Source: Paeniglutamicibacter gangotriensis Lz1y (lineage in GTDB: Bacteria; Actinomycetota; Actinomycetes; Actinomycetales; Micrococcaceae). From it: 64,000 bases of DNA. Positions 12,967 through 59,056 of the stretch are shown one piece after another. The DNA lies in contig NZ_AOCK01000010.1 of assembly GCF_000348945.1 (NCBI RefSeq), positions 124,001 to 188,000 on the forward strand, given 5' to 3'. The notes below the pieces were generated by a model that was not told the origin of the DNA, did no database searches, and worked only from the letters and a program-made list of their open reading frames with translations. Each line of letters starts with the position of its first letter. The stretch's first letter is position 1. The translations under genes were made by a program, and so were the position numbers.

Positions 12967-13026
12967 GGCCCCCGGGCCGGCAGACCCCGCCCCTCGCGGC
13001 GGACAAGCCGGACCGGGGGCCTTTTT
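12967..13026 (+). terminator. Intrinsic terminator after clgR
   Basis: GGCCCCCGG (12967-12975) pairs with CCGGGGGCC (13013-13021), an inner GCCGG/CCGG region also pairs, and TTTTT follows at 13022-13026. Confidence 0.9.
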
Positions 13027-13063
13027 GCGTGTTTTGCGGCCAAGCCATGACACAATGGCGAGG

Positions 13064-13288
13064 GTGCGAATGAGTGATTTTTGGCGACTGATGGATGACG
13101 AGTTTGGTGCGGGCTACTCCCGCACCCTGGCATCCTCTTTGGTGCTCGCGGAGGTGGGCGGCATTACCGCCACCGAGGCACTGGAGCACGGGGAATCCCC
13201 GCGGCGGGTGTGGCAGGCAGTGTGCAAGATGCAAGATGTACCGCCCGAACGCTGGTTGGGCCGCGATGTCGCCCCCAAGGAATCCTAG
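13064..13288 (+). CDS. DUF3046 protein
   Basis: A 74-residue protein of the small DUF3046 family found next to recA in many actinobacteria; its function is unknown. Key features are MSDFWRLMDDEFGAGYS at the start, a central VLAEVGGITATEALE and the end PRRVWQAVCKMQDVPPERW. Family members usually begin 'MR(L)SDFW', which favours GTG 13064 (V-R-M-S) over ATG 13070. CACAAT ends 7 bases before the GTG, a possible leaderless promoter. It is soluble, and conserved synteny with recA/recX is the only functional hint. Confidence 0.8.
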   Translation: MRMSDFWRLMDDEFGAGYSRTLASSLVLAEVGGITATEALEHGESPRRVWQAVCKMQDVPPERWLGRDVAPKES

Positions 13289-13320
13289 AGAAAAATTCGA
13301 TCTGACACACCACCAGCGTT

Positions 13321-13334
13321 CGAATATCTGTTCG
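13321..13334. promoter_or_regulatory. LexA box (SOS box) of recA
   Basis: CGAAT-ATCT-GTTCG matches the actinobacterial/Bacillus-type box CGAAC-N4-GTTCG with one change. It lies upstream of recA next to a -10-like TAGTGT (13343-13348). Confidence 0.8.
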
Positions 13335-13504
13335 GAAGAGTGTAGTGTTCACAGTGATGATTAGTTCGGCGTCTGTCGTGGGTTATTCACAGTGCGAACG
13401 CCCGAAGTCCAAAGTGTGGGCCACCGGCCGTACGCTCAGGAACAGACAAAGAACACCGGCCGCAACCCGATTCATTCGGACGGCCCTGACAACCGAGGTG
13501 AACA

Positions 13505-14551
13505 ATGGCCGCAGGTAAAGATCGCGAGAAAGCGCTCGAAGCAGCGCTCGCACAGATCGACAAGCAGTACGGAAAGGGCTCGGTCATGCGACTGGGCGAC
13601 AAGACCGTTGCGCCCATTGCCGCCATTCCCACCGGCTCGGTGGCCCTGGACATTGCGCTGGGCATAGGCGGGCTGCCACGTGGCCGCGTCGTGGAGATCT
13701 ACGGACCAGAATCCTCCGGTAAGACCACCGTGGCACTGCACGCAGTAGCCAGCGCCCAGCGACTGGGCGGCATTGCAGCCTTCATCGACGCCGAGCACGC
13801 ACTGGATCCCGAATACGCCAAGAAACTCGGCGTGGACACCGATGCGCTCTTGGTCTCCCAGCCGGACACCGGCGAGCAAGCCCTGGAAATCATGGACATG
13901 CTCGTGGGCTCCGGTTCCGTGGACATCGTCGTGATCGACTCCGTGGCAGCCTTGGTGCCACGCGCCGAGATCGAGGGCGAAATGGGCGACAGCCACGTCG
14001 GCCTCCAGGCTCGCTTGATGAGCCAGGCCCTGCGAAAGATCACCGGCCGACTGTCCCAGACACAGACCACAGCGATCTTCATCAACCAGCTGCGTGAAAA
14101 GATCGGTGTGATGTTCGGCAGCCCCGAAACCACCACCGGCGGCAAGGCACTGAAGTTCTACGCCTCGATTCGGATCGATGTCCGTCGCATCGAAACGTTG
14201 AAGGAAGGTACCGTCCCGGTCGGCAACCGTACGCGCGCCAAGATCGTGAAGAACAAGATGGCCCCGCCGTTCAAGCAGGCCGAGTTCGACATCATCTACG
14301 GACTGGGCATCTCCCGCGAAGGCAGCCTCATCGACATTGGTGTGGACCAGGGCTTCGTGAAGAAGTCCGGTGCCTGGTTCACCTATGACGGAGACCAGCT
14401 GGGCCAGGGCAAGGAGAACGCCCGCAAGTTCCTGCGTGACAACCCTGACCTCGCCGACGAACTCGAACGTCAGATCCTTGAGAAGCTTGGCATCGGCCAG
14501 CTTCCGGAGGAAGCTGACGGGGACAAGTTGCGCGTGGTCAAGGAGTCCTAA
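13505..14551 (+). CDS. recA: Recombinase RecA
   Basis: A 348-residue RecA that forms filaments on single-stranded DNA, drives strand exchange and triggers LexA self-cleavage. Walker A is GPESSGKTT at 67-75, the Walker B region reads [13 protein letters not shown], and the DNA-binding loop 1 region contains [19 protein letters not shown]. The length is normal and no intein is present. The start has the ribosome site GAGGTG upstream of ATG 13505. An SOS box lies about 170 bases upstream. recX follows after 4 bases, so the two are co-expressed. Confidence 0.97.
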
Positions 14552-14555
14552 CTCC

Positions 14556-15473
14556 GTGGGCACCACCAAAAAACCGGGCGGTTCGTCCGGCTCCCGACCG
14601 GGAGCCGAACGGCCGCTTTGGTCGTTCCCGGCAGATGGCAACTCCGACTGGGGAAAGCCGACGGACATTCCGGCCTGGGCAGACAGCCCGGAGGCCGGAG
14701 CCGCGCCGGCTGTAGAGCAATCACCAGCCCCAGCCGAAACCTCATCGCCTGGCTTCGGCGAGAAACGTGACGCCTATGCCGGGCGGAGCGCCCGCGACAG
14801 TTCCACGAAAAGCGCCAGCTCCTGGGGCAGTGGCAACCGCTCAGGGTTCAAGAAGAAGAGCACCGGCTCGTGGGGGAGCAGCGCCGGCACTAAGCGCACG
14901 AGTTCCAAGCGCAGCACCGAGCGGACGGGGCGCACGCGCACCAAGGCGGTCTCGGACTCCACGGAGCCCGTCGAGCTCAGCGATGAGCAATATGCCACCA
15001 AGGGACGTGCCGTGATCTTGCGCCAGCTCACGGCCTCGGCCAAAAGCCGCGCCCAATTGAAAACCAAGCTGCTGGAAAAGGAGATTCCCGAGAACATCGC
15101 CGAGGAACTCCTTGACCGTTTCGAAGACATCCAGCTCGTGGATGACGAGGCTTTCGCCGAAGGCTGGGTCCGTTCCCGGGCACGCAGCAGAGGCCTGGCC
15201 CGGTCCGCCATTCGACGCGAACTGCGCGATAAGGGGATCGAAGGCGAGCTGGCCGAAACCGCGCTGGAACAGATCGACGAGGACACCGAGGAAGCCACGG
15301 CCAAGGATCTGGTCGAACGCAAACTCAGGGCACCATCCATGGCGGCGGACAAGGAAAAAACTGTCCGCCGGCTCGTGGGCATGCTGGCCCGTAAGGGATA
15401 TTCCTCGTCCATGGCCTACCGACTGGTCAACGAGTCTTGGGAAGAACGCTTCGGGGAGGACGCGGAGTATTAG
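14556..15473 (+). CDS. recX: Regulatory protein RecX with long N-terminal extension
   Basis: RecX inhibits and modulates RecA filaments. The C-terminal 155 residues form the three-helix-repeat RecX domain (GRAVILRQLTASAKSRAQL, DEAFAEGWVRSRARSRG, ending in GYSSSMAYRLVNESW). The first 150 residues are low-complexity, rich in Ser, Gly, Lys and Arg (SSKRSTERTGRTRTK), and are not part of standard RecX, which is about 150-200 residues long. GTG 14556 follows the recA stop by 4 bases and the upstream sequence lies inside recA, so it is the best start. The extension could help DNA binding; this is inference. Confidence 0.88.
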   Translation: MGTTKKPGGSSGSRPGAERPLWSFPADGNSDWGKPTDIPAWADSPEAGAAPAVEQSPAPAETSSPGFGEKRDAYAGRSARDSSTKSASSWGSGNRSGFKKKSTGSWGSSAGTKRTSSKRSTERTGRTRTKAVSDSTEPVELSDEQYATKGRAVILRQLTASAKSRAQLKTKLLEKEIPENIAEELLDRFEDIQLVDDEAFAEGWVRSRARSRGLARSAIRRELRDKGIEGELAETALEQIDEDTEEATAKDLVERKLRAPSMAADKEKTVRRLVGMLARKGYSSSMAYRLVNESWEERFGEDAEY

Positions 15474-15528
15474 CGTCCGCACGCGTTATGCAGGCCCGGG
15501 ACCTGAGGGCATTGGGTAGGCTTGGTGG

Positions 15529-17055
15529 GTGACTGCGAGCATTGTATTTACCGACGATCAAGATTCATCAGTGGCTACCCGCACCTACGAGGTGCGAACC
15601 TACGGCTGCCAGATGAATGTCCACGACTCCGAGCGTCTGTCCGGGCTCCTCGAAGCCAGCGGCCTCGTTGAGCAAGAGCCCGGCGACGAGCCTGCCGACG
15701 TGGTGGTTTTCAACACTTGCGCGGTCCGGGAAAACGCTGACAACAAGCTCTACGGAAACCTGGGCATGCTGGCCCACATCAAGGAAACCCGTCCCGGGAT
15801 GCAAATCGCCGTCGGTGGCTGCCTGGCCCAGAAGGACCGCGAAACGATCTTGCGAAAGGCACCCTGGGTCGATGTGGTCTTCGGTACCCACAATGTTGGT
15901 TCGCTTCCGGCCCTGCTGGAACGCGCACGGCACAACAACGAGGCACAGCTCGAGATCCTCGAGTCTCTCGAAGTCTTCCCTTCCACGCTGCCGACCAAAC
16001 GCGACTCCGTGCATTCGGGCTGGGTATCGATCTCCGTAGGGTGCAACAACACCTGCACCTTCTGCATCGTGCCCTCGCTGCGAGGCAAGGAACGCGACAG
16101 GCGTCCGGCCGACATCCTGACAGAGATCGAAGCACTGGTTGCCGACGGTGTCATCGAGGTGACCCTGCTGGGGCAGAACGTGAACTCCTACGGCATTGAA
16201 TTCGGCGACAGGCTGGCCTTTGGCAAGCTGCTGCGCGCCTGCGGACAGATCGAGGGACTCGAACGGGTCCGCTTCACCAGCCCGCACCCCGCGGCCTTCA
16301 CCGACGACGTCATCGAGGCCATGGCCGAAACCAGCAACATCATGCCGCAACTGCACATGCCGCTGCAGTCGGGTTCGGACAAGGTGCTCAAGGACATGCG
16401 CCGCTCCTACCGTTCCAAGAAGTTCCTGGGCATCCTGGATAAGGTTCGCGAACTGATCCCGCACGCCGCCATCACCACCGACATCATCGTGGGCTTCCCC
16501 GGAGAAACCGAAGAAGACTTCCAAGCCACGCTGGACGTGGTGGAAGCCTCGCGTTTCTCCAGCGCTTACACATTCCAGTATTCCAAGCGCCCCGGTACCC
16601 CCGCCGCCGAGCTGCCCGACCAGTTGCCCAAGGCCGTGGTGCAGGAGCGCTTCGAGCGGCTCACCGCACTGCAGGACCGGATCTGCGCCGAAGAAAACGC
16701 CCTGCAGGTCGGACGCACGGTCGAAGTGCTGGTCACCGAGCACTCCGGGCGCAAAGCAGCCGAAACCCATCGACTCAGCGGACGCGCCACCGACCAACGA
16801 CTGGTGCACTTTTCCGTGCCCGCCGGAGGCGGCACCCCGCGCCCCGGTGACCTGGTCACGGTGCCCATCACCGGTGCAGCGGCCTTCCACCTGGTCTCAG
16901 ACCCGTCCTCGCTCGAAGAGTACTCAGTACGCCGTTCGCGGGCGGGGGACGCCTGGGACAGGTCCCAGGCCGACTCCTGCGGTACCGGGACCGGCGGGGA
17001 CTCCGGAACCCGTGGGGTTTCACTGGGCATGCCCACGCTCCCGATCCGCAAGTAG
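15529..17055 (+). CDS. miaB: tRNA-2-methylthio-N6-dimethylallyladenosine synthase
   Basis: A 508-residue radical-SAM methylthiotransferase that adds the 2-methylthio group to i6A37 of tRNAs reading UNN codons. The N-terminal UPF0004 domain starts [14 protein letters not shown] with Cys ligands of the auxiliary cluster. The radical-SAM CxxxCxxC lies in [13 protein letters not shown] near residue 175, and a TRAM RNA-binding domain is near the end. Its substrate-preparing partner miaA is next. The GTG start 15529 lies 6 bases after TAGGCT (15517-15522) with no ribosome site, so it is probably leaderless. Confidence 0.95.
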
Positions 17056-17065
17056 CCGGCCCACC

Positions 17066-17965
17066 ATGGAAAAACCTGTTATTGCCGTCCTGGGACCCAC
17101 GGGAACCGGGAAATCGGATTTGTCGATCGCGCTGGCCCGAGAACTGGGCGGCGAAATCGTCAACGCCGATGCCCTGCAGTTCTACCGCGGCATGGACATC
17201 GGCACGGCCAAGCTCCCCGAAGCCGAACGCGGTGGGATCCCGCACCACCTGCTGGACATCATGGAGGTGCGCCAGGAAGCCAGCGTGGCTCGCTTCCAGG
17301 CCGAGGCGCGGGCCTGCTTCGCAGAAATCCGGAACCGCGGAAACGTCCCGATCTTGGTTGGCGGCTCGGGACTGTACGTGCGTGCAGCACTTGACGAGAT
17401 CGACTTCCCACCGACCGACCCTGCGGTGCGCCAACGGTTGGAGGCCGAGGCAGCTGCCGGCGGCATCGGCCCGCTGGCCACCAGACTGGCGGCTATCGAC
17501 CCTGAATCCGCGGCACGGAACCTCGATGACCGACGTCTGATCCGGGCCCTGGAAGTCTACGAGATCAGCGGCAAACCCTTTAGTTCCTTTATGCCGCAAC
17601 GGCGCTACCACGCCCCGGCGATCCAGATCGGGCTGAACATCGACCGTGCACTGTTGCACACCCGCCTGCAGGCTCGGGTCACCGCGATGGTCGAGCAGGG
17701 GCTGCTCGAGGAAGTGCGGCGGCTGGACGCCCAGGGGTTGCGCGAGGGCAAAACCGCCGGGCGGGCCATCGGCTACGCCCAATTCCTGGCGGTCCTTGAC
17801 GGCACCATGTCGCAGCCCGAAGCCGTGGAAAAGACCGTGATCGCCACCCGCCAATTCGCCCGCCGCCAAGTCACCTGGTTCGGTGCCGACGAGCGGGTCT
17901 CCTGGTTCGATCCGACCACCGATACGCTGCTACGCAGCGTTCTAGCCCGGATCAAAGACACCTGA
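17066..17965 (+). CDS. miaA: tRNA dimethylallyltransferase
   Basis: A 299-residue enzyme that transfers the dimethylallyl group of DMAPP to A37 of tRNAs, producing the substrate of MiaB. The P-loop [11 protein letters not shown] is at residues 10-20, followed by [15 protein letters not shown] (substrate and tRNA contacts), [13 protein letters not shown] and the C-terminal [10 protein letters not shown] motif. ATG 17066 is directly before the P-loop strand, as in homologues; an upstream in-frame start at 16847 would lie inside miaB. It starts 10 bases after miaB, so the two form an operon. Confidence 0.95.
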
Positions 17966-51277: not shown

Positions 51278-52162
51278 CTAGAACTCTTCGCCGGCGGCGA
51301 TGACCGCGGCGGCAGGTCCCACGATGTGCGGATCGGGGGTACCGACTAGCTCGTGGTCCTTGCCCTCGTAGTCGAACAGGCTCAGCACGTGGCGCATCGC
51401 CCCGAGCCGGGCACGCTTCTTGTCATTGGATTTGACCACGGTCCACGGCGCCCACTCGGTGTCCGTGCTGCGGAAGGTCTCCTCTTTGGCCTCGGTATAG
51501 GCGTCCCACTTATCCAGCGACGCTAAATCGGTGGGGGAGAGCTTCCACTGGCGCACTGGGTCGATCTGCCGGATGGTGAAGCGGGTGAGTTGTTCGCTGC
51601 GGGTGACCGAGAACCAGAACTTCACCAGCGTGACCCCGTCATCAACCAGCTGCTTCTCGAAGGCCGGAGCCTGATGCATGAACCTGTCGAACTGCTCGCG
51701 GGTGCAAAAACGCATGACGCGCTCCACCCCCGAACGGTTGTACCACGAGCGATCGAAGAGGACCATTTCCCCGGCCGCCGGTAGGTGCGCGATGTAGCGC
51801 TGGAAAAACCATTGGGTTGATTCGCGTTTGTTGGGCTTTTCCAGAGCTACTACCCGCGCCCCGCGCGGGTTCAGGTGCTCGGTGAAACGCTTGATGGTCC
51901 CGCCCTTGCCCGCGGCGTCGCGGCCCTCGAAGAGCACCACCAGCCGTCGCCCGGTGGCCTTGATCCAGACCTGCAGCTTGAGCAACTCGATCTGCAGCAG
52001 CCGCTTCTCTAGGTCGTATTGGGCCCGGTCCAGACGCGTGGAGTACGGGTAGTCCTCGCGCCAGGTATCCACCACGTCCCCATTTGATCTCAACAGCACC
52101 GGGTCGTCATCGTCGTCGTCGCGGATGGAATAGCCGTGGGCGGCCAAATCGAGTAGGTGCAT
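51278..52162 (-). CDS. ppk2: Polyphosphate kinase 2
   Basis: A 294-residue PPK2-family kinase that uses polyphosphate to phosphorylate nucleotides (or the reverse). Walker A is FEGRDAAGKGG at 78-88. EKPNKRESTQWFFQRYI, LFDRSWYNRSGVERVM and EQLTRFTIRQIDPVRQWKLS carry the Walker B and lid residues. An acidic run of six Asp lies at residues 15-20. ATG 52162 is 6 bases after TACGGT on its strand (leaderless type). It is separated by strong hairpins from both neighbours, so it is a single-gene unit. Confidence 0.93.
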   Translation of the reverse strand: MHLLDLAAHGYSIRDDDDDDPVLLRSNGDVVDTWREDYPYSTRLDRAQYDLEKRLLQIELLKLQVWIKATGRRLVVLFEGRDAAGKGGTIKRFTEHLNPRGARVVALEKPNKRESTQWFFQRYIAHLPAAGEMVLFDRSWYNRSGVERVMRFCTREQFDRFMHQAPAFEKQLVDDGVTLVKFWFSVTRSEQLTRFTIRQIDPVRQWKLSPTDLASLDKWDAYTEAKEETFRSTDTEWAPWTVVKSNDKKRARLGAMRHVLSLFDYEGKDHELVGTPDPHIVGPAAAVIAAGEEF

Positions 52163-52200
52163 GGTGCAACCGTATAAAGTCGGATGAACGCAATGTGAAC

Positions 52201-52234
52201 GGCGCCGGTCCGGGACATGTCCCGGACCGGCGCC
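52201..52234 (-). terminator. Perfect palindrome ending the peptidase/NRPS operon
   Basis: A 34-base perfect inverted repeat centred on GACATGTC lies 15 bases past the M1-peptidase stop. Its G+C-rich stem suits termination, though only a weak T-tract follows. Confidence 0.8.
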
Positions 52235-52248
52235 GGCGGTCGTTCTCA

Positions 52249-53643
52249 TCACATGGCAGGCAGCGGTGGCAGCGCAGGTTCCAGAAGCCAGGGCCGCAGG
52301 AAATCCGTGGCAGGGATCGACAGGGGCAGCTGGTCATCGAGGTGGGCCGTGAACTGCGCGCAGGTGACGGTGCCGTGGCGCCGGGCCCCGGTCCAGGAGC
52401 GCAGCATCGCAAAGAAGGCACGGTCCCCGGAAGCCACGCGCAGTGCGTGCAGGGCCAGTGCTCCGCGCTTGTACACCCTGTCATCAAACATGTCCGCCGG
52501 TCCGGGCTCTCCGATGGTGATGTCCTGTTCCAGCGACTCGAGCATGGCCCAGGCTTCCCTGGCGCGCGCCTCGGTGCTCATCGTGCCGGAGGCTTGGGAC
52601 CAGATCCATTCGGCGTAGCAGGCAAACCCCTCGTGCAACCAGATGTCCTTCCACGTGCCCAAGGTCAGCGAGTTGCCGAACCACTGATGGGAGAGTTCGT
52701 GGGCGATCAAGCGCTGCTGCTCCCAGCCCGGGGCCAGGTGGTTGTTGCCCAGGATGGAGAGCCCGTGCGCCTCCAACGGGATTTCCAAGTCGTCCTCGGT
52801 GACGACCACGGTGTAGTCGTCGAAGGGATAGGGGCCGAAAGCCTCGATGAAGGTTTCCATCATCCGTGGCTGGTCCGCCAGCGCGGCCGAAGCCCGGTGC
52901 AGCTGGGAACCGTTGGCTGCCACCCATTGCGGCACCAGAGCCGGGGACCCGGCCCGGCGTCCGCCCAGCGGGGCAGCTGAGATCTCGGTCCCGGCCAGGG
53001 CGCGGAGCTCGTAGCGGCCGATCTGCAAGGTCGCCAGGTAGGTGGCCATGGGCTCGTTGACCTCGTAGGTCCACTGTTCACGGCTGGAGCGGCGTTGACG
53101 CTCCAACAGCGTCCCGTTGCATACCGGTCGGTAGCCGGCATCGGTGTTGATGCTGATGCGGTAGGTGGCCTTTTGGCTCGGGTGGTCGTTGCAGGGGAAC
53201 CAGGTCGGGGCCCCGTTGGGCTGGCCCGCGACCAGCACCCCGTCGGTGAGTTCCTCCCAACCGACCTCGCCCCAGGTTCCCTGGCGTACGGTCGGGACCC
53301 CGCCGTAGCGGATCTCCACGGTGAACCGTTCGGCTGCGAGCAGCGCCGTGGGCAGATGCAGTTCCAGCTTGCCGGCTTTCTGCGTGAACTTTGAGACCTT
53401 GGACCCGTTGAGCTGCACGCGTGAGGCGCGCAGCCCGGAAAGGTCGAGGGAAAGCCGTTCCATGGTGCCGGCGGCCACCGCGGTGATGACCGCACGCCCG
53501 TCGAGCCGGTTACTGCCCAGCTTGCAGTCCAGATCCAGGTCGTAGTGCTCCACCCGGTAAGCTGCACTGCCGGAGCGCGGGATGTAGGCATCCGGGATGA
53601 ATGCGGTGGTGGGTGCCGTGGTGTTCAGGGACGAATGACTCAT
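52249..53643 (-). CDS. M1-family zinc metallopeptidase
   Basis: A 464-residue aminopeptidase-N-like enzyme. The N-terminal beta-domain starts AYRVEHYDLDLDCKLGSNRL. The zinc site is HELSHQWFGN (near 314) with the second Glu in LHEGFACYAEW. The usual GAMEN exopeptidase motif is replaced by LEIPLEAHGLSILG, so substrate-amino-terminus recognition may differ. It is shorter than E. coli PepN (lacking the C-terminal superhelix). The start overlaps the NRPS stop as ATGA, so it is translated with the synthetase. By analogy with epsilon-poly-lysine loci it may degrade the product of that enzyme. Confidence 0.87.
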   Translation of the reverse strand: MSHSSLNTTAPTTAFIPDAYIPRSGSAAYRVEHYDLDLDCKLGSNRLDGRAVITAVAAGTMERLSLDLSGLRASRVQLNGSKVSKFTQKAGKLELHLPTALLAAERFTVEIRYGGVPTVRQGTWGEVGWEELTDGVLVAGQPNGAPTWFPCNDHPSQKATYRISINTDAGYRPVCNGTLLERQRRSSREQWTYEVNEPMATYLATLQIGRYELRALAGTEISAAPLGGRRAGSPALVPQWVAANGSQLHRASAALADQPRMMETFIEAFGPYPFDDYTVVVTEDDLEIPLEAHGLSILGNNHLAPGWEQQRLIAHELSHQWFGNSLTLGTWKDIWLHEGFACYAEWIWSQASGTMSTEARAREAWAMLESLEQDITIGEPGPADMFDDRVYKRGALALHALRVASGDRAFFAMLRSWTGARRHGTVTCAQFTAHLDDQLPLSIPATDFLRPWLLEPALPPLPAM

Positions 53644-56600
53644 GCGTGCGGCTGGCTCCAGGGTTGTACGGGGTTGCCCATCCAGTAGCTCGACGGGGGA
53701 ACTGTTTCTCCGCGCATCACCAGCGACGACGGACCCACGGTGGCGCCTTCGGACAGCGAAGCTGCCGGCAGGATGACCCCGTGCGGGCCCATGGTGGATC
53801 CTGCGCAGAGTTCTACCGTATCAATGGCCATGACCCGGTCATGGAAAAGGTGTGTCTGGACAACGGTGCCGCGGTTGACGGTCGCAGAGTCTGCGAGGGT
53901 CACCAGGTCTGCCTCGGGCAGCCAGTAGCTTTCGCACCAGACCCCGTGACCGATCTTGGCGCCAAGCGCGCGCAGCCACCACACCAGGGCCGGTGAGCCG
54001 GCCGCCGAGTGGGCGAACCAGGGGGCACAGACCATCTCGATGAAGGTGTCTACGACCTCGTTGCGCCAGATGAATGAGCTCCACAGCGTGTGTTCGCCGG
54101 GGCGGATGGGCCCGACCAGCACCCACTTGGCCACCACGGCTGAGGTGGCCGCCACGGCACCTGCGGCGAGCATCACCGCACCGCTGAGCAGCCCCGCGAC
54201 CAGGTAGCCGTATTCGGTGGCCAAGGCATCGAGCAGCACCAGCACCAGTGCGGCGATCCCCACGCTGATGACCACGGGCACGAACCTGCATACCTCCCAG
54301 AGGGCGCGGGCCAGTTTCAGGTGCAGGGGAGGTGCGTAGGTGAGCGCGGAATCCGCGTCGACGGTGGTGCGGCGCAGACGCACCGGGGGGCTGCCCAGCC
54401 AGGAGGTCCCTGCCTTGGCCTTGGCGGGGGTGGCGGAGAGCACCGCGACCAGCCCGTTGCGCGGGACCCGGCGTCCGGCCCCGGCGATGCCGGAGTTGCC
54501 CAGGAAGGCGCGCTTGCCGATCTTGGCCCGGCCCACCTTCATCCAACCGCCGCCGAGTTCGTAGGTGGCGACCATAGTGTCATCTGCCAGGAAGGCCCCG
54601 GCGCCGATGGTGGTCATCTTGGGGATCAACAGCACCGTGGAGGCCTCGACGTTGCGTCCTACCTTCGCGCCGAGCAGGCGCAGCCAGACGGGGGTGAAAA
54701 GTGAGGCATAGAGGGGGAAGAGCAGGTCGCGGGCCATGTCCAGCAGGCGTTCGGTGGCCCAGACCTGCCAGCCGATGCGGCTGTCCACGCGGTGCCAGCC
54801 CTCCCGCAGGCCGATGCCCAGCAGCCGGGTGGCGCCAAGCACCAGCAGCATGTTCAGGACAAACCACGTCAGGGCCGCGACCGGTACAACATAGCTCAGG
54901 GCCAGCAGGGATTCGTGCAGAGACTCCTGGCCGCGCAGCAGGAAGAGGGCCACCAGCACCGCGCCCAGGATGGAGAGCAGGGGGAGGGTGCCAAGGGCGG
55001 TGGAGGCGATGGCGAAGAGTGCGTCGCGCAGCCGGCGGGAACGGATCGGAGCCTGTGGCCAGTCGGGTTTGGCCTTGCCGCTGCGTTCGGCCGGTGAGCC
55101 GGAGTAGGCGGAAAAGGCCGTGGTGGTGCCGGCTAGGGCGGAGCCCGGAGCCAGGACCACACCGTCGGAGACGACCGAACCGGGCATCAGGGTGCTGCGT
55201 GCCCCGACGCTGGCCTCGGCACCGATCTCGATGGCGCCCACGATGAGCCGGTCCCCGTCGATCCAGTAGCCGGTGAGGTCGACCTCGGGTTCGATGTTGG
55301 CCCCGCGGCCCACGGTGAGCAGGCCGGTGACCGGCGGAATCGTGTGCATTTGGACATCGTGGCCGATCTCGGCACCCAGCGCGCGGGCATAGTGCTGGAT
55401 CCAGTGCGCGCTGCCCAGCGAGACGGGATCAACCAGGTCCGCGATCTGCTGGGCCATCCACAGTCGCAGGTGCACCTTGCCCGAACGCGGATAGTTCCCG
55501 GGTTTCAGGCCACGCAGGAGCAGACGAGCGGCGAGAATCGACAGGGCCATGCGGCCGGGGGACGACACGAAGACGAGCCAGAGCCCGGCAACCGCCCACC
55601 AGGAGAGCCTCGGTGCCTCGGGGAACATGCCCAGGGCACCGAGCACGTTGTTGCCCGCCGCCAGGTACACGAGCCAGCGCATGCCCACCAGGATGAAGGT
55701 GGGGATGCCCATCAGGGTTTGGAAGACCTGGGCGCGCCGGGTGGTGCGCTCCACGACGCGTCTCTCCGGTTCGACATCCGAGCTGGTGCCCAGCGCCTCG
55801 AGCAGGGAACCGATGCGGGGGTGTGAATAGATCTCGCCCACGGTGACGGTGCGGTAGCGCACGCGCAGCGCGGAAACGAGTTGCGCTGCGGAGAGCGACC
55901 CGCCGCCGGATGCGAAGAAATCGGCTTCCAGGCTCGAGACCTCGAGGCCCAACACCCGCCTCCACTGCTCGATGACCCAGGCCGCGTCCTCGCTCAGCTC
56001 CGGCAGGACACCTGCCTCGGCGCTGGATGTGGCCCCGGGCAACGGCCACGGAAGGGCGTGGCGGTCCACTTTGCCGCTGGTCTTGGTCGGCAGGGTGTCC
56101 ACGATGGCCAGCAGCGGGATCAAGGCTGCCGGGAGCATCACGGCCAGCCGTTCGCGGGCCGCAGCGGTGTCGAAGGCCGGGTCGGCCGCCAGGTAGCCAA
56201 GCAGGATCTGGTTTCCCGCCGCAGTGGTCTTCACCGCGGCGGCGGCACCGGAGAGCCCGGGCAGCGACTGGAGTGCGGCATCGATTTCCCCCAGTTCGAT
56301 GCGGCGGCCGCCGAGTTTGACCTGTTCGTCCATCCGTCCCAGGAACACCAACCCCTCGGGGTCGGCCAGCACCAGGTCCCCGGAGCGGTAGGCCCGCTCC
56401 CAGCCGAGCGATTCAAACGGGGCGTACTTCTCGGCGTCCTTGTCCGCATCGAGATAGCGGCCCAGCCCGACTCCGCCGATGATCAGTTCCCCGCTCTGGC
56501 CGTCGGCGACGGGCAGCCCGGAGGCATCCACCACGGCCAGGTCCCAGCCAGCCAGCGGCAACCCGATGCGCACCGGGTCGGTGCCGTCCATCTGTGCCGC

Positions 56601-57680
56601 ACACGCCACGACGGTGGCCTCGGTGGGTCCGTAGGTGTTCCACAGTTCGCGCCCCGGCACGGCAAGGCGGGCGGCCAGCTCCGGTGGGCAGGCCTCACCA
56701 CCGAAGATCAACAGGCGCACGTTTTCTAGGGCTTCGGCTGGCCACAGGGCGGCGAGGGTGGGAACGGTGGAGACCACGGTGACCCCGCGGGTCACCAGCC
56801 AAGGACCCAGGTCCATGCCGGAGCGCACCAGCGCCCGCGGGGCCGGCACCAGGCAAGAGGAGTGGCGCCAGGCCAGCCACATTTCCTCACAGGAGGCATC
56901 AAAGGCCACCGAAAGTCCGGCCAGCACGCGGTCCTCCGGGCCCAGCGGTTCGGCTTGCAAAAAGATTCTGGCCTCGGCGTCGACAAATGCGGCCGCCGAG
57001 CGTTGGGTGATGGCCACACCCTTGGGGGTACCGGTGGAACCGGAGGTGAAGATGATCCAGGCGTCATCGCCCAGGGCCGCGTCCCGGGCTGGTTCCGGGT
57101 TCGGGGTGCTGCGTAAGGTAGTGATCTTGCCCTTGGCGCCGATGACCGCGGCGACCTTCGCTTCGGTGAAAACCAGTCGGGCCCGTTCCTCGGGGTCGTC
57201 GGCGTCAACCGGGACGTAGGCTGCACCGATCCTCATGGTGGCCAGGATGCCGATGTACAGATCGCGGGTTCCCGAGGGGATCCGGATGCCGATCCTGTCG
57301 CCCGCACCGAGCCCAGCCGAGCGCAGGCGGGAGGCGGTTTCCTCGACGGCTAGGAGCAGTTCCGCGTAGGTCAGTGAGCGCTCGCCGTCATCCAGGGCAG
57401 GGGCTTCGGGGTGGGCGGCGGCACTTGCCTGAAGGATGTCGATCAGGGTCCGGGGTTCCGGTGCCAGGTGGCTGCCGGGGTATTGCGGCAGGAACACGTC
57501 GGTCGTGGTTCCAAGAGCGGGGATGCTGGGAATCGATTCCACTGTGGCTTTCTTCGAAGTGGTGTCCGGCGTGGTCCTTGCGGGTTCGGCCGTGAACATG
57601 GAGCCCAACCATGATCCGGAGACACGCCACCAGGGCGCCCGCCACCGCTCGGCCGGGACGTACGCGCCAACATTAACCAT
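53640..57680 (-). CDS. Pls/PosA/Gh-type single-module NRPS (poly-amino-acid synthetase-like)
   Basis: A 1346-residue protein. Residues about 75-560 form an adenylation domain: IIFTSGSTGTPKGVAIT near 208, NTYGPTEATV, YRSGDLVLADPEGLVFLGR, and the A10 Lys in TKTSGKVDRHAL. A carrier domain follows with its phosphopantetheine Ser in FFASGGGSLSAAQL (near 592). From 660 on, about six membrane helices alternate with three soluble domains, at least two containing hexapeptide-repeat-like strands (IEIGAEASVGARSTLMPGSV). There is no condensation or thioesterase domain. This is the arrangement of epsilon-poly-lysine synthetase Pls. The start (ATG 57680, beside TTAACC-N6-GGTTAA) is uncertain. The product is unknown. 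Confidence 0.88.
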   Translation of the reverse strand: MVNVGAYVPAERWRAPWWRVSGSWLGSMFTAEPARTTPDTTSKKATVESIPSIPALGTTTDVFLPQYPGSHLAPEPRTLIDILQASAAAHPEAPALDDGERSLTYAELLLAVEETASRLRSAGLGAGDRIGIRIPSGTRDLYIGILATMRIGAAYVPVDADDPEERARLVFTEAKVAAVIGAKGKITTLRSTPNPEPARDAALGDDAWIIFTSGSTGTPKGVAITQRSAAAFVDAEARIFLQAEPLGPEDRVLAGLSVAFDASCEEMWLAWRHSSCLVPAPRALVRSGMDLGPWLVTRGVTVVSTVPTLAALWPAEALENVRLLIFGGEACPPELAARLAVPGRELWNTYGPTEATVVACAAQMDGTDPVRIGLPLAGWDLAVVDASGLPVADGQSGELIIGGVGLGRYLDADKDAEKYAPFESLGWERAYRSGDLVLADPEGLVFLGRMDEQVKLGGRRIELGEIDAALQSLPGLSGAAAAVKTTAAGNQILLGYLAADPAFDTAAARERLAVMLPAALIPLLAIVDTLPTKTSGKVDRHALPWPLPGATSSAEAGVLPELSEDAAWVIEQWRRVLGLEVSSLEADFFASGGGSLSAAQLVSALRVRYRTVTVGEIYSHPRIGSLLEALGTSSDVEPERRVVERTTRRAQVFQTLMGIPTFILVGMRWLVYLAAGNNVLGALGMFPEAPRLSWWAVAGLWLVFVSSPGRMALSILAARLLLRGLKPGNYPRSGKVHLRLWMAQQIADLVDPVSLGSAHWIQHYARALGAEIGHDVQMHTIPPVTGLLTVGRGANIEPEVDLTGYWIDGDRLIVGAIEIGAEASVGARSTLMPGSVVSDGVVLAPGSALAGTTTAFSAYSGSPAERSGKAKPDWPQAPIRSRRLRDALFAIASTALGTLPLLSILGAVLVALFLLRGQESLHESLLALSYVVPVAALTWFVLNMLLVLGATRLLGIGLREGWHRVDSRIGWQVWATERLLDMARDLLFPLYASLFTPVWLRLLGAKVGRNVEASTVLLIPKMTTIGAGAFLADDTMVATYELGGGWMKVGRAKIGKRAFLGNSGIAGAGRRVPRNGLVAVLSATPAKAKAGTSWLGSPPVRLRRTTVDADSALTYAPPLHLKLARALWEVCRFVPVVISVGIAALVLVLLDALATEYGYLVAGLLSGAVMLAAGAVAATSAVVAKWVLVGPIRPGEHTLWSSFIWRNEVVDTFIEMVCAPWFAHSAAGSPALVWWLRALGAKIGHGVWCESYWLPEADLVTLADSATVNRGTVVQTHLFHDRVMAIDTVELCAGSTMGPHGVILPAASLSEGATVGPSSLVMRGETVPPSSYWMGNPVQPWSQPHA

Positions 57681-57814
57681 GAAAGGTTAACGGGAGGTGT
57701 CCAAGGGGCCTGGATCACACCATTTCCGGAAACCCTATGTCACATGCGTGCCCGGCTCCGTGTGATGCGCCACGGGCCGCCGAGCGTGGATTGGCGGCAA
57801 CAGCGGTTCGGGTG

Positions 57815-58095
57815 GCGGTAGGGGGCTTTCGCGCTGCTGGCCGGCCCGGCCCTGTCCATCGGCACCGCGCTGGTCTCGGCACTTTTGCTCGGGTTCCTGG
57901 AGCGGCCGTGACGCCTTGGTCTCCTTGATGCGGGACCAGGCAGGTGCCGAGGCGGTCGGTGAGGTGCTCATCTCGGCCCTGGCTCCACTGTCGATCGTGG
58001 GGGCGATGACGCTGAGCCTGTATACCGGGCACCTGATGTTCTTCGCCACGGCGACCCGAATGCCCGCTTTGGTGACACATACGCGATACTCATCA
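57815..58095 (+). pseudogene. Remnant of a DUF418-like membrane protein
   Basis: Fragments in different frames read AFALLAGPALSIGTALVSAL then LERP-stop (57911), then EVLISALAPLSIVGAMTLSL, YTGHLMFFATATRMPAL, and in another frame GDTYAILIIVAM. The GAMTLSLYTGHL section resembles the conserved C-terminal helices of DUF418-type acyltransferase-like proteins. No start or full domain remains. The rest of the interval 57691-58285 holds the divergent promoters and a 23-codon frame (58168-58239) with no known match. Confidence 0.4.
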
Positions 58096-58285
58096 TCGTG
58101 GCTATGGAACCAGACGCCGCAGGCCGGACGCTGTACGATGATCGCCTGATAATGCCAAGGGCCTGACGATGCCCGATGTCCTGGCCTGGGACGAATTGCC
58201 CGAAGGTATCAAGAAACGCTGGCGCGGATACACCAACTGACCCCTCGGCACGCCCCGGGGGAGTAACCACGAGGAAGCACTGAAA

Positions 58286-59056
58286 ATGCGGATGACCACC
58301 GAAGATGGTCCCCAACCGACTACGAGCCTCCACGCCGGCCCCTGGTGGGCGGCCGCACCACTGGCCGATGCCGCGGCACACCCAGGCATCGGGCTGAATC
58401 CGCTCGAACGTGCCCGGGCGGGGGGATATATGCCAGGACGCCCGCGTGAGGATTTCACGGCGGGACGGATCCTGGTGCGGGTCTTGGCCGCCGAACTGTT
58501 GAACCGGGCCCTGCCGCGGCCCGGCTCAGGCAATGCCCAGGATCTGGAAATCACCCAGAACTGTCCCAGCTGTGCCTCGAGCGCGCATGGGACCCCCCGC
58601 CTGCACTTGCCACAGCGGGAAGAATCCTTTGCCCTGTCCTATGCCCGGAGTGCCGGCTGGCTGCTGGTCGGGTTGGCACCTGGCCCCGGGCGGCTGGGTC
58701 TCGATCTGGCGGAGCCGGCCGATGCCGCCTTTGCCACCGGGGAGGGGGACCTCTTGGAGGATTATGCCTATGCGCCGGCCGAACGTGAGCTGCTCTCAGC
58801 CATGTCTCCTGCCGCACGGCAGCAGACCCGGGCGCGGTGGTGGGCGCTGAAGGAAGCAGTGGCCAAGGCCTCCGGCGAGGGCCTGGCCGGGGAGGGCGGC
58901 ATCCCGGTGGTCGCCGGAGACCAACGCCATGGCCTCTTGCGTACTCCCGGCACCCGGGTCATCGAACTGTCCCCGGGCAACCCCGACGGGTTAGGTCATG
59001 TACTACCGGGCAACCTCTGCGGCGCGATGATCTGGGTCCCGGGCAGCAGCAACTAA
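58286..59056 (+). CDS. 4'-phosphopantetheinyl transferase, Sfp type
   Basis: A 256-residue enzyme that moves phosphopantetheine from CoA to carrier-protein serines. The magnesium-binding motif is GLDLAEP (near 139) and the second signature is ARWWALKEAVAKASGEGL (near 185-200, W-x-x-KEA). The N-terminal part includes GRPREDFTAGRILVRVLAAE, matching the Sfp 'R..F...R.l.R' pattern. Divergent from the NRPS gene by about 600 bases, it is the obvious activator of its carrier domain. ATG 58286 is used; the nearby ATG 58292 is an alternative. Confidence 0.88.
   Translation: MRMTTEDGPQPTTSLHAGPWWAAAPLADAAAHPGIGLNPLERARAGGYMPGRPREDFTAGRILVRVLAAELLNRALPRPGSGNAQDLEITQNCPSCASSAHGTPRLHLPQREESFALSYARSAGWLLVGLAPGPGRLGLDLAEPADAAFATGEGDLLEDYAYAPAERELLSAMSPAARQQTRARWWALKEAVAKASGEGLAGEGGIPVVAGDQRHGLLRTPGTRVIELSPGNPDGLGHVLPGNLCGAMIWVPGSSN

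Follow-up and report, generated by a model that had tools for sequence, protein, structure and literature searches.

The window, by which we mean the whole stretch of 64,000 nucleotides that was analysed (positions 124,001 to 188,000 of contig NZ_AOCK01000010.1), comes from the soil bacterium Paeniglutamicibacter gangotriensis Lz1y, whose genome is available as 4.32 Mb in 20 contigs. It contains pls, a gene for a Pls-type synthetase that occupies the minus strand at 53640-57680 as an open reading frame of 1346 residues. On the same strand follow the gene of an M1 peptidase (52249-53643), the ATG of which overlaps the pls stop codon as ATGA, an overlap of four bases, and an open frame for a class-I PPK2 polyphosphate kinase (51278-52252). 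A gene for an Sfp-type 4'-phosphopantetheinyl transferase (PPTase) is located divergently from pls on the plus strand (58286-59056), and past it lie sugar ABC transporter-like genes, with a binding protein that matches GlcS below its cut-off, and then a ROK regulator. Direct repeats that resemble a PHO box precede both pls (57681-57702, minus strand, two 11-nt units) and ppk2 (52179-52200, minus strand). The initial annotation of this DNA had described the synthetase, the overlapping peptidase gene and the adjoining PPTase on a Micrococcaceae-type chromosome, all of which holds; ppk2, the next gene downstream of the peptidase, lies just beyond the stretch that it covered and is absent from it.

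In a profile search, Pls showed an AMP-binding domain (PF00501, residues 84-406) and a PP-binding domain (PF00550, residues 568-630), and its residues 652-1338 were matched end to end (model positions 1-695 of 695) by TIGR02353, "Pls/PosA family NRPS", with 675 bits against a cut-off of 423. With an adenylation (A) domain, a carrier and the full C-terminal region above the curated cut-off, the protein belongs to the Pls/PosA family. A hydropathy scan revealed membrane-like segments in the C-terminal half, near 656-674, 896-914, 931-958, 1136-1160 and 1160-1189, which would be compatible with about six helices, and one more peak in the A domain at 512-530. Matches of the C-terminal part to hexapeptide-repeat acyltransferases are weak, PF00132 remaining below its cut-off, and would agree with three soluble C-terminal domains. 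The start codon of pls is uncertain because the ATG at 57680 abuts the conserved repeat and is not common to all nine aligned members of the genus.

The best solved-structure match of Pls is the A domain of the epsilon-poly-lysine (ePL) synthase, 7wew. At the ten positions of the adenylation pocket, the numbering of which we take to be that of GrsA, Pls reads DAESIGTVVK, and by eye the same letters are found at the aligned positions of this crystallised domain. The code recurs in 150 of 155 Pls frames, with a V-to-I exchange at the ninth position in the other five, and the carrier serine is present in all 155, which are the matches above 900 bits from 80 named loci and from 75 cases in the window and other genomes, some genomes being counted twice. 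The spacing of the pocket agrees with the PosA positions, and an alanine at position 2 marks the lysine-activating members according to PMC10522769. Because its pocket carries the same letters as 7wew, Pls is expected to use L-lysine as substrate and to form ePL as product. PosA, the delta-poly-L-ornithine synthetase of Acinetobacter baumannii, is of the same family and shares the aspartate and glutamate of the pocket, but it possesses a methionine at position 2, where the window Pls has the alanine that is tied to lysine (PMC10522769).

The closest named relatives of the window Pls come from Arthrobacter sp. C2 (92%) and Paeniglutamicibacter terrestris (83%). Some genomes carry further types. 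In G011, two adjacent divergent Pls genes (L199:8131-12105 and 13536-17459) are 48% and 93% identical to the window Pls, and the distant type has the pocket DAESIGTVIK, as do the Pls proteins of L201, L220, L277 and L278. Pls-like paralogues of about 30% identity (L202:6139-10017 in G001 and L203:6656-10531 in G009) show the pocket DFECLSVVTK in a pairwise alignment; PMC10522769 associates a phenylalanine at position 2 with diaminopropionate or diaminobutyrate enzymes, and these paralogues may make another polymer. The pls homologue of G024 (L018, L258) carries one in-frame TGA; for that genome one PF01648 protein is listed, and a match of 123 bits to the PPTase profile is located 4.3 kb downstream of the homologue.

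The M1 gene lies behind pls on the same strand in all 80 named loci, in 75 of them at a distance of at most 200 nt, whereas the gap amounts to 0.6 to 2.2 kb in L063, L066, L069, L084 and L112. The window peptidase matches PF01433 and PF17900, and the zinc motif HExxH-x18-E is found in 153 of 153 M1 frames. Among 143 close pairs, an in-frame M1 start occurs at -4 from the pls stop in 66 and an ATG or GTG at -1 in 23, and no other offset between -40 and +60 is seen in more than 6. The window peptidase thus combines the M1 zinc motif with translational coupling behind pls, and is of the PldII type by position and coupling. M1 aminopeptidases carry a GAMEN motif, and at this place seven of the aligned M1 sequences read I/V-P-L/V-E-A/S-Q/H, with P289 and E291 at least 97% conserved over the 153 frames; the altered segment is possibly a signature of ePL peptidases.

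In S. albulus, pldII is translationally coupled to pls and encodes an aminopeptidase-like enzyme that is required for self-protection (PMC9223678). We infer from the likeness to that system (PMC9223678, PMC8506220), in which Pls and a coupled degrading enzyme go together, that the window peptidase cleaves ePL, and we are confident that the locus encodes an ePL synthetase with a PldII-type peptidase. In four 9-Mb genomes with the Streptomyces-type pair (L192-L195), no PPTase or PPK2 was found linked to it, which sets them apart from the window; the S. albulus sequence compared here was that of the 7wew A domain only. The C. variabile pls-peptidase operon and the Pls proteins of cheese and skin coryneforms possess the same architecture and context as the window, a coryneform Pls was shown to produce ePL in a Streptomyces host, and Pls homologues were reported in 2021 from Arthrobacter, Glutamicibacter, Micrococcus and others (PMC8117764). 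The core of the locus is therefore of a known kind and probably makes ePL. According to the initial annotation, pls is accompanied by a degrading peptidase in organisms that produce ePL, which agrees with PMC8117764 and PMC9223678. Non-alpha poly-amino-acid clusters have moreover been described in all Antarctic strains of one study, Micrococcaceae included (PMC11078813), and ePL clusters of cleanroom Microbacterium and others have been compared (PMC12067966).

The PPTase is identified by PF01648, with 32.5 bits against a cut-off of 25; this profile also matched 25 of 26 aligned members. Its catalytic residues G138, D140, W186, E190 and K194, which we take to represent the Sfp-type motifs (V/I/L)G(x)D and WxxKEAxxK, are invariant among the 26 aligned relatives. 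Two PF01648 proteins are encoded in the genome, which has two PF00550 carriers as well: Pls and a 147-residue open frame that is taken for the fatty-acid carrier. Within the genus, 11 of 15 genomes have pls, the M1 gene and a full-length PPTase together; in one of the 11, G004, the Pls is more distant (49%). In the other four, not one of these genes is complete: G005, G006 and G012 are without all of them, and all that is left in G010 is a PPTase scrap (42 bits). A location of the PPTase gene beside pls by mere chance was considered and rejected, since the two genes go together across the 15 genomes of the genus that were searched. In the window, as in most genus members, the PPTase gene is on the divergent side of pls. 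Among the 80 named loci, 31 have a PPTase of the window profile in the flanks examined, and in 28 of these it stands behind the M1 gene and points against it; the 31 loci belong, as we take from the record titles, to Micrococcaceae, Microbacteriaceae and Humibacillus. For Nocardia, Rhodococcus, Mycobacterium, Mycolicibacterium and Tsukamurella, no PPTase of this profile was detected in the pls flanks of the named loci. In G001, two PPTase genes (L200:5108-5815 and 12984-13667) flank one pls-peptidase pair, which would fit a duplication of the gene or its transfer from the convergent side to the divergent one. We consider it very probable that the PPTase is dedicated to Pls.

The protein encoded next to the peptidase matches PF03976 and TIGR03707 above cut-off, and carries an asparagine after Walker B (DRSWYN), which marks class I PPK2 enzymes that convert ADP to ATP (PMC8776046). 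This asparagine is present in 27 of 31 pls-linked and in 15 of 15 unlinked copies, and the window enzyme most likely phosphorylates ADP at the expense of polyphosphate. The ATG at 52162 is the probable start codon of ppk2, because the region of this codon is conserved in eight aligned genus members, and 90 nt that are untranslated or non-conserved then separate it from the peptidase gene. Within the genus, PPK2 is encoded in 9 of 15 genomes (E 1e-60 or better) and always adjoins the M1 gene; at the same threshold it was not found in the four pls-less genomes, nor in G001 or G004.

In 295 genomes of the family, 228 had some PPK2 (E 1e-30) and 159 a Pls (E 1e-150). Among the PPK2 matches listed for these genomes, the score drops from 483.6 to 440.8 bits after the best 44, and all of these 44 are in genomes carrying pls (Fisher's p 1e-13, with relatedness ignored). 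On the same strand as pls and less than 9 kb away are 43 of the 44, with 41 located within 4.2 kb downstream; the 44th (G514) is on another contig than pls. Matches below the gap, considered down to about 406 bits, belong mostly to another subfamily. The gap is not an exact bound of the lineage because at least two linked copies, in G355 and, with a stop inside, in G464, fall below it, and weak members of the lineage may be present in pls-less genomes. A tree of 46 PPK2 sequences (31 linked, 15 unlinked) required three label changes, a number as low as which was reached by none of 500 shuffles; nine of the unlinked copies group within the linked set, on a long and moderately supported branch (92/93). 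A single origin of the pls-linked lineage is likely, as judged from this tree. In two named Arthrobacter loci (L049, L056), ppk2 is located directly upstream of pls and the copies fall within the linked lineage, so that the position has changed and the adjacency to pls has been kept.

The PHO box consists of two 11-nt direct repeats (PMC4415409), and this architecture is found before ppk2 and, in weaker form, before pls. The repeat GTTCA-N6-GTTCA, with at most one mismatch, occurs in 26 of 32 ppk2 upstream regions (17 exact; the 32 loci include one copy of another subfamily, L237, and two genomes twice, L033/L204 and L034/L207), against 5 of 674 upstream regions of other genes in the same loci (2 exact). 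It is seen in 0 of 153 M1, 3 of 91 PPTase and 18 of 154 pls upstream regions. In the window, the exact core before ppk2 lies at 52185-52200. We trained a repeat matrix on the ppk2 sites alone, and it scored pls upstream regions higher than those of other genes (rank-test p 6e-18): with levels set by 655 control regions, 69 of 153 exceeded the 95% level and 16 of them the 99% level. At the 95% level these were 45 of 97 in Micrococcaceae and 24 of 56 in other families. Shuffled pls upstream regions (n=765) passed at 3% and 0%, and the M1 upstream regions at 3 of 153 and 0 of 153, with levels from a scan in which the final position of a region was not scored. On the opposite strand, 24 and 5 of 153 pls upstream regions passed, which also exceeds expectation. 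For the window, the repeat before pls outscores 98.6% of the control regions but stays below the 99% level, and an alignment of nine genus members shows it within a conserved island of the pls upstream sequence.

Across the genome to which the window belongs, the exact repeat shows no enrichment (6 sites against 4 for the reversed pattern), and beside its other five exact sites no phosphate gene was recognised by eye. A scan for sigma-70 promoters and terminators gave nothing above chance. A perfect 34-nt palindrome (52201-52234) was noticed by eye between the peptidase gene and ppk2, adjoining the repeat; it was discarded as a signal, being absent from seven other aligned genus members. Other OmpR-type regulators with an 11-nt spacing are MtrA and AfsQ1, and a regulator of either type may act at the repeats. 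On the pattern of the repeats, PhoP-type control of ppk2 seems rather probable, and for pls such control falls just short of an even chance.

From the observed gene content, motifs, pocket, co-occurrence, linkage and repeats, we infer a product, a peptidase substrate, an ATP supply and a mode of regulation that would fit together as follows. The PPTase would attach the phosphopantetheine arm to the Pls carrier domain. Pls would adenylate L-lysine, with conversion of ATP to AMP and PPi, and then hold the lysine on the carrier. The membrane-bound C-terminal domains would link lysines via their epsilon-amino groups, a step adopted from the literature, and the translationally coupled M1 peptidase would cut ePL and thereby protect the cell. 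A class I PPK2 does not use AMP, the nucleotide that Pls releases; an adenylate kinase would convert AMP to ADP, from which the PPK2 would most likely form ATP with polyphosphate. Phosphate stress would probably act on both pls and ppk2 through one shared PhoP-like regulator. This whole chain, an ePL module with ATP derived from polyphosphate and with phosphate stress as its switch, appears fairly probable to us. Against it counts that inactivation of Pld and PldII in Streptomyces was reported to leave ePL production and chain length unchanged (PMC8506220). As a general statement on the family, we propose that ePL synthesis in Micrococcaceae is a phosphate-starvation response, in which a PhoP-type regulator switches on pls-pldII together with a dedicated class-I PPK2 that would burn stored polyphosphate and so maintain a high ATP level during polymer formation, and we give this proposal a probability of roughly 35%.

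The ATP supply has a counterpart in S. albulus PL05, where ePL rose by 21% and the intracellular ATP level by 72% once genes for PPK2B and the AMP-phosphorylating PAP had been introduced from C. glutamicum and A. johnsonii (PMC10012588), and because of this effect a polyphosphate-to-ATP step can be regarded as useful for ePL synthesis. That strain resembles the module proposed here in that a PPK2 supplies ATP to ePL synthesis, but it was engineered, whereas the window PPK2 is naturally linked and has no class-II partner in view.

The PPK2 could also be a passive neighbour in an ordinary ePL locus, kept beside pls by inherited order and occupied with its own task in phosphate metabolism, so that only pls, the peptidase and the PPTase cooperate. 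The same outer neighbours of the locus, one of which is a protein of 848 residues in the window taken for pheT, are kept in 13 to 18 of 19 genera, and for this reason inherited order is a real alternative and can explain part of the linkage. It would also suit a passive role that ppk2 has a repeat of its own and stands 90 nt behind the peptidase gene, and that many pls loci are without a nearby PPK2, none having been found near pls in 56 scanned loci outside the family, nor in many genera of the family. Against it stand the restriction of the best 44 PPK2 matches to pls-bearing genomes, the upstream position of ppk2 in L049 and L056, and the same kind of repeat before both genes. In G010, moreover, a near-empty site (L198, 9104-9739) brings together the transporter genes, the PPTase scrap and the HEAT-repeat region that flank the locus in the window, and pls, the M1 gene and ppk2 are all missing between them; their joint loss speaks for a common role, although a single deletion of neighbours would suffice. 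We give the passive neighbour somewhat less than an even chance, and a functional tie of the PPK2 to ePL synthesis an even one.

Two other readings concern the direction of the kinase and the nature of the polymer. The PPK2 might work mainly in reverse, and the polyphosphate made in this way, being a polyanion, could bind polycationic ePL in the cell and buffer it. The class-I PPK2 of C. glutamicum indeed strongly prefers polyphosphate synthesis, but most class-I enzymes covered by PMC8776046 phosphorylate NDPs with polyphosphate, and we regard the reverse function as unlikely. A new, undescribed cationic polymer, as proposed in the initial annotation, is in our opinion highly unlikely. Pocket codes are predictions, which leaves this reading some room, but the pocket is identical to that of the ePL synthase 7wew, its alanine at position 2 marks lysine (PMC10522769), and the surrounding genes are those known from ePL producers rather than from producers of the other polymers (PMC8117764). 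The undescribed polymer was given up on account of the pocket, and the pls-peptidase pair had been published before.

Returning to the proposed phosphate-starvation response, the make-and-degrade pair itself is already known, and what appears to be new is the context around this core, namely the co-inherited PPTase, the linked PPK2 and the PHO-box-like repeats, for which the functions outlined above are putative. The sections of PMC8117764 considered here describe the pls-peptidase pair without PPTase, PPK2 or phosphate control, which are the additions seen in the window. In the titles, abstract openings and best matches of the open-licence literature, we found neither a natural pls-PPK2 or pls-PPTase linkage nor PhoP control of pls. 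The native pls of C. variabile was silent, and its authors proposed an unknown signal (PMC8117764). The linked PPK2 and the repeats bear on the question of what triggers pls outside Streptomyces; if true, the phosphate-starvation response would explain the silence of pls in ordinary media and would tie the antimicrobial ePL to nutrient stress. The linked PPTase would suit as a ready partner in the heterologous expression of Pls, and the PPK2 linkage suggests that a pairing of Pls with the kind of ATP-regenerating enzyme engineered into S. albulus already exists in nature.
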